From Neomicrococcus lactis (GTDB lineage: Bacteria; Actinomycetota; Actinomycetes; Actinomycetales; Micrococcaceae), in the NCBI RefSeq assembly GCF_014200305.1, contig NZ_JACHBL010000001.1:2480001-2544000 (forward strand): 64,000 nt of DNA. The letters are read 5' to 3'. Shown one piece after another: positions 9,928 through 11,352 of this stretch. A program made the position numbers and the translations under genes. The notes under the pieces were generated by a model. That model had not been told where the DNA came from, did no database searches, and worked only from the letters and a program-made list of their open reading frames with translations. How positions within the stretch are numbered: position 1 is the first letter of the stretch; each line of letters begins with the position of its first letter.

Positions 9928-11352
9928 ATGGCGAACAACTTGCAAGAAGTCCTCGATCAGGCCGGAAATACGGTCGAATTTCTCCGTAACTCCCAAATCG
10001 GCGCCTACATCTACCCAGTGGTGGCACCGGAATTCTCCAACTGGCGCTCGGAGCAGCGCGCTTGGCGTGAGACCGCCGTTCTCTTTGACCAGTCCCATCA
10101 CATGGACAACCTCATCCTCCGCGGCCCGGACGCTATCAAGCTCATCTCTGACACCGCCATCAACTCCGTGGCCAACTTCCCGGTCAACAAGGCCAAGCAG
10201 TATGTGCCTGTCACGCCTGCTGGTCACGTGATCGGTGACGGCATCCTCTTCCGCCAGGACGAAGATGAGTACGTGTACGTGGGCCGCGCACCGTCCACCA
10301 ACTGGCTCTTGTACAACGCTGCAACCGGAGGCTACAACAACCTCGACATTGTCGAAGACCGCCGCTCTCCATCACGCCCTATGGGTAAGCCCGTGTCCCG
10401 CGAATACTGGCGTTTCCAGATTCAGGGCCCACGCGCATGGGACATCATCGAGAAGCTCCACGGTGGACCTCTCGAGCAGCTCAAGTTCTTCTCGATGGAC
10501 TACATGAACATCGCTGGCGAGAAGGTTCGCACTCTTCGTCACGGCATGTCCGGTGCTCCTGGCCTTGAGATCTGGGGTCCATACGCCACGTATGACAAGA
10601 TCCGCGACGCCGTCTTGGAAGCTGGCGCAGAGTTCGGCATCGCCGCCGTGGGCTCCCGTGCTTACCCATCCAATACGCTCGAATCCGGCTGGATTCCTTC
10701 GCCATTGCCAGGCATCTACACGGGTGAAGAGTTGCGCGCTTACCGCGAGTGGCTCCCAGCTACCTCCTACGAGGCCAACAACGCTGTGGCCGGTTCCTTC
10801 GTCTCGGATAACATCGAGGATTACTACCTCAACCCGTGGGAGCTTGGCTATGGCTCCTTCGTGAAGTTCGATCACGACTTCATCGGCCGCGACGCCCTCG
10901 AGAAGATCGATCCAACCAAGCAGCGCCGCAAGGTCACGCTGGCTTGGGAGAACGAGGACTTCAAGAAGATCCAAGATTCCATCCTCAAGCCGGCCGGCGA
11001 GAACTACAAGTACTTCGACTTGCCGTTGGCTAACTACGGTTCTTCGAACTACGACAAGGTCGTGGACGCAGACGGCAACGTCGTGGGCTTCTCGATGTTC
11101 ACGGGCTACTCCTCCAACGAGCAGCGCGCGCTTTCCCTCGCAACCGTCAACGCGGATGTGCCAGAAGGCGCCGAACTCAAGGTTGTCTGGGGCGAGGAAA
11201 ACGGCGGCACCAAGAAGACCACCGTTGAGCGTCACCAGCAGATCGAGGTCAGCACCATCGTCTCGCCAGTTCCGTTCTCCACGGTGGCTCGCGAGTCCTA
11301 CCAGGGCGGCTGGCGCACCGGTTACAAGGACGGCGTAGCCATCTCCGAGTAA
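9928..11352 (+). CDS. Tetrahydrofolate-dependent aryl O-demethylase, LigM/DesA type (GcvT fold)
   Basis: 474 residues, well above GcvT (about 370) and equal to sphingomonad LigM (vanillate/3-O-methylgallate) and DesA (syringate). The N-terminal part [18 protein letters not shown], then [16 protein letters not shown], and [20 protein letters not shown] follow the LigM pattern as I remember it. Tyr246, Arg120, Gln55 and Tyr29 fall where LigM has its catalytic and methoxy-site residues. The GcvT-type C-terminal barrel follows from about residue 370. It would transfer the aryl methyl group to THF, giving 5-methyl-THF, which fits metF and purU downstream. SD-like GAAAGG precedes the ATG. Substrate (vanillate, syringate or a methoxycinnamate) is not determined. 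Confidence 0.85.

Follow-up and report, generated by a model that had tools for sequence, protein, structure and literature searches.

A predicted LigM-type aryl O-demethylase beside a divergent MTHFR in a putative ferulate gene island of Neomicrococcus lactis

Among described systems, the closest counterpart of the protein studied here is LigM of Sphingobium lignivorans SYK-6 (PDB 5tl4, 5x1i-5x1n), of which 5tl4 and 5x1i are named vanillate/3-O-methylgallate O-demethylase. PMC6888825 assigns this gene to an operon, ligM-metF-ligH, that is controlled by the MarR regulator DesR, and describes 5-methyl-tetrahydrofolate (5-methyl-THF) as feeding methionine synthesis in SYK-6. S6MTHFR, the Sphingobium methylenetetrahydrofolate reductase (MTHFR) that partners ligM, is described as oxidizing 5-methyl-THF and as working with LigM (PMC12585457; PMC13001107), and the module has been proposed to replace glycine cleavage in SYK-6 (PMC12585457). 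DesA, Dmt, SesA, BrdA and DmdA appear in PMC5547118 and PMC9404685 as GcvT-related, THF-dependent demethylases or demethylenases, BrdA being reportedly 26.7% identical to LigM and DesA (PMC5547118). For phenylpropanoids, PMC5479773 describes a pathway in Corynebacterium glutamicum whose phd cluster encodes the enzyme classes PhdA, PhdE, PhdB and PhdC; these classes are all found in the locus below, which we liken to it by class and not by sequence.

We analyzed 64 000 nucleotides of the Neomicrococcus lactis genome (the window), in which an earlier reading of the letters alone, here called the original prediction, had proposed a LigM/DesA-type aryl O-demethylase. The window protein is ~70% identical to SYK-6 LigM over nearly the whole length and keeps Tyr246, Arg120 and Gln55, and a metF homologue is linked to ligM in both organisms. 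The window differs from SYK-6 in its actinobacterial host, in the presence of PurU, of a PadR gene and of a phd-like promoter motif, and in carrying glycine cleavage genes; its host is without detectable methionine synthases, in contrast to the methionine supply from 5-methyl-THF described for SYK-6 in PMC6888825. The features are collected in Table 1.

Table 1. Features of the ligM region, in window coordinates
Feature	Position	Strand	Basis or remark
MarR-family gene, in-window 5' part, PhdR candidate	1..225 (genome 2479764-2480225)	-	PF01047 E 6e-9
SDR, PhdB-like 3-hydroxyacyl-CoA dehydrogenase (putative function)	386..1312	+	PF00106 E 7e-47; name by enzyme class
Amidohydrolase_2, PhdC-like 3-oxoacyl-CoA hydrolase (putative function)	1302..2207	+	PF04909 E 7e-54
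Acyl-CoA dehydrogenase (ACAD), presumably PhdD-like	2204..3379	+	PF00441/PF02770/PF02771
MaoC-like enoyl-CoA hydratase, PhdE-like	3425..3880	+	PF01575 E 1e-27
SBP1, NMT1/THI5-type substrate-binding protein	3948..5045	+	PF09084 E 6e-24
AMP-forming acyl-CoA ligase, PhdA/feruloyl-CoA-synthetase-like	5232..6845	+	PDB 8weu, 8wev
ABC permease 1	7056..7973	+	SaoP/TauC/SsuC-type NCBIfam matches, under their cut-offs
ABC permease 2	7973..8746	+	tblastn cross-hits with permease 1; neighbour order
ABC ATPase	8736..9680	+	SaoA/TauB-type NCBIfam matches, under their cut-offs
Island motif TCGTTGNNTTNTTCA	9799..9813	+	upstream of ligM; other copies at 309, 3945, 5191
Perfect 9+9 bp palindrome ATACCTATG-AA-CATAGGTAT	9827..9846	+	upstream of ligM
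ligM, predicted THF-dependent vanillate/3-O-methylgallate O-demethylase, 474 aa	9928..11352	+	intact ATG-started ORF, 474 codons
SBP2, second NMT1/THI5-type substrate-binding protein	11522..12523	+	PF09084 E 3.5e-40
IS30 transposase ORF, 548 aa	12602..14248	-	NF033563 292 bits, cut-off 80; between SBP2 and MTHFR
Divergent ligM-linked type of MTHFR, putatively oxidizing 5-methyl-THF	14307..15170	-	PDB 7xg9 match
Palindrome CACTATCT-ATGC-AGATAGTG	15205..15224	+	between PadR and MTHFR
PadR-family regulator, candidate for LigM/MTHFR genes	15230..15937	-	PF03551 E 8e-13
purU, formyl-THF deformylase	16086..17042	+	TIGR00655 324 bits, cut-off 286

Identity and distribution of the window LigM

By its family scores the protein is a LigM, an ordinary and well-conserved copy whose enzymatic role is predicted. 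A phmmer search of the PDB matched LigM chains 5tl4/5x1i over residues 3-464 (E 7.6e-232, 773.6 bits), a resemblance far beyond chance, and the NCBIfam LigM equivalog NF047885 gave 892.2 bits against a cut-off of 580, across positions 1-459 of the 461 in the profile. The curated cut-offs thus uphold the original prediction on the LigM side; a DesA identity was rejected, the DesA equivalog NF047633 giving 619.6 bits where its cut-off is 800. Gln55, Arg120 and Tyr246 coincide with the residues of the aligned solved LigM, and these three, with Tyr29, His57, His58 and Trp255, are invariant in an alignment of 20 LigM sequences, so that the glutamine, arginine and tyrosine positions are as the original prediction had placed them, in the protein's own numbering and in the aligned LigM alike. 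In LigM numbering they are Tyr247, Arg122 and Gln57, which we take to be the catalytic tyrosine and pocket residues. A larger count of 115 rows found Tyr246, His58 and Trp255 in 115, Gln55 in 114, and Arg120 and Tyr29 in 108 each; these rows include genes present in more than one copy as well as distant paralogues, and 102 of them were kept for the tree. With a mean pLDDT of 67.9 the AlphaFold model is of middling quality, and its pLDDT falls below 50 at residues 243-262, the stretch that holds Tyr246. Overlaid on the PDB with Foldseek, it found 16 LigM chains at ranks 1-16, with 68-71% identity and TM scores (by query length) of 0.78-0.83. The predicted model thus bears out the LigM fold, but not the geometry of the pocket.

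The suggestion that this protein widens the family to Gram-positive bacteria did not survive comparison with other genomes. Scanning one genome per species gave 560 candidate stretches, 553 of them encoding relatives, and 30 of the best 80 of these 553 belong to Actinomycetota (Arthrobacter, Citricoccus, Leucobacter, Tersicoccus, Zafaria, Paeniglutamicibacter, Solirubrobacterales and Acidimicrobiales bins, and others); the 80 loci, being the best matches to the window LigM, are a biased sample, and several are ended by contig ends. Within the host's order, 9 of the 149 sampled genomes carry a LigM over the NF047885 cut-off, a curated model that already names the protein. There are also earlier actinobacterial cases: among the MAGs of PMC9296663, a LigM-type gene was predicted for one of the Micromonosporaceae and DesA-like genes for Solirubrobacterales, Thermoleophilaceae and Rubrobacter, and PMC5547118 demonstrates biochemically THF-dependent demethylenases in berberine-degrading Arthrobacter and Rhodococcus. 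LigM-type enzymes are thus already known in the host's group of bacteria, and the window copy is a further LigM.

In a quick midpoint-rooted tree of 102 rows, one branch (support 96) parts 44 Actinomycetota from 48 Pseudomonadota rows, with 10 in neither. The window LigM pairs with Citricoccus (support 89, not starred), its nearest rows being Citricoccus and Arthrobacter, and lies among 94 rows on a support-100 branch apart from distant paralogues, in a tree without characterized DesA. Because the tree parts the two phyla and the window LigM joins Citricoccus, the LigMs of actinobacteria appear to be a lineage already established, and not a recent transfer into this strain. The Arthrobacter and Citricoccus proteins (loci L005-L018) are 76-82% identical to the window LigM. 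Most of these loci keep the promoter palindrome and 13 of the 14 have an MTHFR, the exception (L006) being a 3.5-kb contig; they have no phd-like SDR, ACAD or MaoC.

Neighbouring genes and promoter motifs

The phd-pathway set (CoA ligase, enoyl-CoA hydratase, 3-hydroxyacyl-CoA dehydrogenase and ketohydrolase) is found in one cluster of the window, as judged at family level only. We presume the gene order SDR-hydrolase-ACAD-MaoC, with a MarR regulator, to be identical to that of the C. glutamicum phd cluster, from which the window differs in that its cluster adjoins an ABC importer and LigM. The best PDB matches of the ligase are two chains at E ~1e-152, 8weu (513.1 bits; named fatty-acyl-CoA synthase) and 8wev (512.8 bits; named feruloyl-CoA synthetase). 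For the amidohydrolase, identity with LigI or LigJ was considered and dropped: up to 1e-5 the PDB yielded just 3irs and 3cjp, which bear neither name, and a PhdC-like role is preferred, short of proof. Homologues of this hydrolase lie near ligM in other genomes, at 50-54% identity in L028-L030 and L083 (~8.6-8.8 kb) and L101 (start), and at 43-49% within a few kb of ligM in many Pseudomonadota loci, which suggests a recurring hydrolase-LigM link. Since no SDR, ACAD or MaoC of at least 38% identity was found near ligM in the best 80 of the 553 loci, the union of phd-like genes with ligM is not conserved in the relatives; a close ligase (64%) occurs in these 80 only in L016, ~7.5 kb from ligM. 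That locus, from Arthrobacter sp. CAU 1506 and alone in this among L005-L018, groups the 64% ligase with a PadR of 49% and an SBP2 of 65% identity (L016:18078-20722) at 7-11 kb from ligM, an arrangement that looks as though pieces of the island moved as a set.

The importer comprises two permeases, an ATPase and two binding proteins, of which SBP1 probably has its true start downstream of the listed TTG. An SBP2 homologue of at least 60% identity is present in 12 of the 30 actinobacterial LigM loci (among the best 80 of 553), and ATPase homologues of 80-84% adjoin MTHFR-PurU-LigM in Leucobacter (L024) and in a second genome (G069, L115). This adjacency supports a role in phenolic-acid import, and the cargo would accordingly be a phenolic acid. 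Some 18-30 kb upstream of ligM, which is at 2489.9 kb of the genome, are pobA- and pca-type genes: pobA-like, pcaH, pcaG, pcaB-like and pcaDC at ~2459.7-2465.4 kb, and pcaIJ-family genes with a PcaR-family regulator at 2470-2472.3 kb. With these nearby, the complete path of ferulate into the beta-ketoadipate pathway, by way of protocatechuate, can be written, and the gene island probably takes in and degrades ferulate, with LigM serving it. A further gene in this part of the genome (2453.4 kb; L113:3435-4832) encodes an MFS transporter whose 491 bits on the Tet(V) model fall short of the cut-off (640); any role in resistance is only putative.

A 15-base motif, TCGTTGNNTTNTTCA, written after all four of its sites had been seen, has four exact matches in the 64 kb, upstream of the SDR, SBP1, ligase and LigM genes; allowing up to one mismatch, six were found where 0.20 would be expected. 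The right half of the LigM copy has diverged. A 20-base position weight matrix built from the three phd-cluster sites only ranks the LigM site fourth on both strands of the window, where it scores 19.1 and the next unrelated site 15.0. The palindrome upstream of ligM has a single match in the window at up to three mismatches and none in 100 shuffles. At up to four mismatches it recurs ahead of ligM in 13 of 106 rows, the window included and the others being Citricoccus, Arthrobacter and one genome of the host's family (G099), a level reached by 23 of 2280 random windows, which may contain the site itself. The second palindrome occurs once (0.06 expected), and at least one match arose in 5 of 100 shuffles. 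A CRP/GlxR-like box, GTGGCGCNGRTCAC, lying upstream of ligM, SBP1, ligase and permease, was discarded, as its 10 matches against 6.1 expected were reached by 13 of 100 shuffles.

Because the PadR gene and the second palindrome lie where they do (Table 1), PadR would be the first candidate for the ligM-upstream palindrome. PadR homologues are encoded downstream of ligM in L019, L032, L054 and L115, and among the actinobacterial loci within the best 80 of 553 only 4 of 30 have one of at least 38% identity. The MarR gene, divergent to the SDR gene and half beyond the window, gave 51 bits on NF053777 (the Saro_0803 family; cut-off 200). Both proteins are putative regulators of the genes beside them.

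The ligM-linked MTHFR and the fate of the methyl group

The original prediction gave the enzyme accessory metF and purU genes of its own, and both types are indeed linked to ligM. The metF is nevertheless not of the ordinary type. It is the sole PF02219 match in the genome, at 31 bits, and by sequence it is a divergent type nearest PDB 7xg9 (5,10-methylenetetrahydrofolate reductase; E 4.9e-86, 291.8 bits over 272 residues), not a canonical MetF; other MTHFR chains gave 34.8 bits (8uy1/8uy2) or at most 16.2. We take 7xg9 and 7xlf to be S6MTHFR of SYK-6, although the PDB listing names no organism. The window MTHFR is also 45-53% identical to the MTHFRs adjoining ligM in sphingomonad loci.

Across the 149 genomes of the order, an MTHFR at least 59% identical to that of the window is present in nine, exactly the nine with LigM, and the other 140 have none; the 59% limit was chosen with the list already in view, the next value being 55%. 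The spacing between ligM and MTHFR is 12-2991 bp in eight of the nine, and in the ninth the pair falls on two contigs. Seven of the 149 genomes have MTHFR relatives of 43-55% and no LigM over the cut-off, and two of these (G007 and G089) carry sub-threshold LigM/DesA-like genes. In G089 (L112), two MTHFR relatives flank such a divergent gene (375 bits); the other five are G145, G028, G103, G117 and G075. The relatives in G089 and in these five may pair with uncharacterized THF-dependent demethylases. Among the best 80 of the 553 LigM loci, several of which are ended by contig ends, an MTHFR of at least 38% identity is found within the retrieved stretch in 21 of the 30 actinobacterial and 36 of the 50 other loci, and PurU in 8 of the 30 and 39 of the 50. 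A further stretch, L102, yielded no family match in the single frame searched.

In the host genome, which is 99.93% complete, searches detected no second MTHFR (PF02219; matches in 11 of 14 control genomes), no MetE (PF01717; 10 of 14) and no MetH/MmuM (PF02574, S-methyl_trans; 9 of 14). For this reason 5-methyl-THF from LigM would have no visible exit other than oxidation. A reductive MTHFR would moreover deliver a product with no known consumer, while LigM makes 5-methyl-THF, which favours oxidation by the MTHFR; we therefore infer oxidation as the reading of its direction that leaves no dead end. Of the eight other LigM genomes, one from the same family (G099) likewise has neither synthase family. 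Strong MetF and MetE matches occur in two (G014 and G148), and the remaining five combine MetE-like matches of lesser strength (E 1e-35 to 1e-40) with S-methyl_trans matches that are clear but fall in open frames of less than MetH length. As only G099 shares the absence of both families, the argument covers two related genomes and not all LigM genomes. The absence of canonical MetF is not special to LigM hosts: a strong match is lacking in 27 of the 140 genomes without LigM, as against 7 of the 9 with it.

The IS30 element, bounded by 15-bp inverted repeats at 12580 and 14240, parts ligM and SBP2 from the MTHFR gene and may have split an older unit. Beyond purU lies a gene (17163-18998, minus strand) for a 611-aa protein with an N-terminal glutaminase and a C-terminal cyclic-nucleotide-binding domain, the ~180 residues between them matching no family at the threshold used. 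Further on (19830-21162, minus strand), a TagA-like DNA-3-methyladenine glycosylase (209 bits, below the cut-off of 232.5) adjoins an AlkB-type 2OG-Fe(II) oxygenase, perhaps an alkylation-repair pair near a methyl-transfer island.

Proposed pathway and competing explanations

We consider it highly probable that LigM is the demethylation step of a ferulate-to-protocatechuate island. In this scheme the ABC importer, with its NMT1/THI5-type binding proteins, would take up a phenolic acid, and the phd-like CoA ligase, MaoC hydratase, SDR and amidohydrolase-type ketohydrolase would convert ferulate to vanillate and coumarate to 4-hydroxybenzoate. LigM, by way of its conserved tyrosine, would then pass the methoxyl methyl group to tetrahydrofolate and turn vanillate into protocatechuate, to be degraded by pcaHG, pcaB-like, pcaDC and pcaIJ-family enzymes. 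The divergent MTHFR would oxidize the resulting 5-methyl-THF to methylene-THF, the usual folate steps would lead to 10-formyl-THF, and PurU would free formate and regenerate THF.

This would not be the only demethylation route in the organism. A second LigM (genome 2098053-2099456; L085:10054-11457) is 68% identical to the first and scores 834 bits on NF047885. Upstream of it are genes for a LigB-type extradiol dioxygenase, a shikimate-type MFS transporter, an alpha/beta hydrolase and a histidine kinase, and the group may be a 3-O-methylgallate or gallate unit. A VanA_C Rieske oxygenase is encoded at genome position 2399508, next to a reductase-like ORF; neither attains any curated NCBIfam cut-off. 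With this VanAB-like pair and a second LigM present, vanillate demethylation is possibly redundant. The original prediction had further called the enzyme relevant to lignin conversion without oxygenases, a notion for which the VanA_C oxygenase and pcaHG leave no support: ring cleavage, which needs oxygen, would be by pcaHG. Replacement of glycine cleavage by the module is likewise ruled out for this genome, gcvP and gcvT (the glycine cleavage P- and T-proteins) both being in the window.

LigM might instead be a THF-dependent demethylase of the same fold acting on another methoxyaromatic (3-O-methylgallate, syringate or a dicamba-like compound), with the phd-like cluster beside it by coincidence. 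The NCBIfam LigM model covers vanillate and 3-O-methylgallate together, the DesA model also gives 619.6 bits, the genome holds two LigMs, and conservation of the phd-like genes next to ligM is not seen in other loci among the best 80 of 553, all of which would fit such an enzyme. We nonetheless think it unlikely, given that the DesA cut-off is not reached, that the ligM promoter motif is common to the phd-like genes, that the ligase is of feruloyl-CoA-synthetase type and that pca-type genes are nearby. An assignment of the protein to the GcvT-like aminomethyltransferases, with a housekeeping role in the metabolism of glycine or sarcosine, has next to no probability and is refuted by the family scores: the two share PF01571, yet the window LigM reaches only 78.8 bits on the GcvT model NF001567 (cut-off 300), on which a separate GcvT of the same genome scores 439, and a sarcosine-oxidase-alpha-type protein is also encoded apart from LigM.

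The oxidative direction of the MTHFR has a rival of its own, in which the enzyme works reductively, supplies methyl-THF for methionine and is linked to ligM through general folate supply. Its match to the MTHFR family, still detectable at 31 bits, would agree with this. The lack of MetE and MetH/MmuM matches in a nearly complete genome where most controls have them, the co-occurrence with LigM across the 149 genomes and the reported oxidation by the Sphingobium ligM partner (PMC12585457) all speak against it, and we hold a reductive role to be decidedly unlikely. Going beyond oxidation itself, we put forward tentatively, at somewhat less than even confidence, that LigM and a reverse-running MTHFR form a purely catabolic module, in which 5-methyl-THF would be made only by aryl demethylation and leave only by oxidation, uncoupled from methionine and tied, through the promoter motif that they have in common, to a dedicated ABC importer and to the breakdown of the ferulate side chain.

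The enzyme itself is ordinary and its lineage was known to carry LigM; what the locus adds is the ferulate island, the ligM-linked type of MTHFR and the missing methionine synthases. The missing synthase matches provide an independent argument for an oxidative LigM-linked MTHFR. If the purely catabolic module is real, one would expect strict methionine auxotrophy of the bacterium, on vanillate too and in contrast to SYK-6, and nature would thereby have supplied a genetic test of which way the ligM-linked MTHFR runs. The locus is also a Gram-positive case where the uptake of ferulate, the removal of its side chain, methyl transfer and the recycling of one-carbon units may together form one co-regulated unit, and it marks actinobacteria of the Arthrobacter group as candidate hosts for the use of lignin methoxyl groups.
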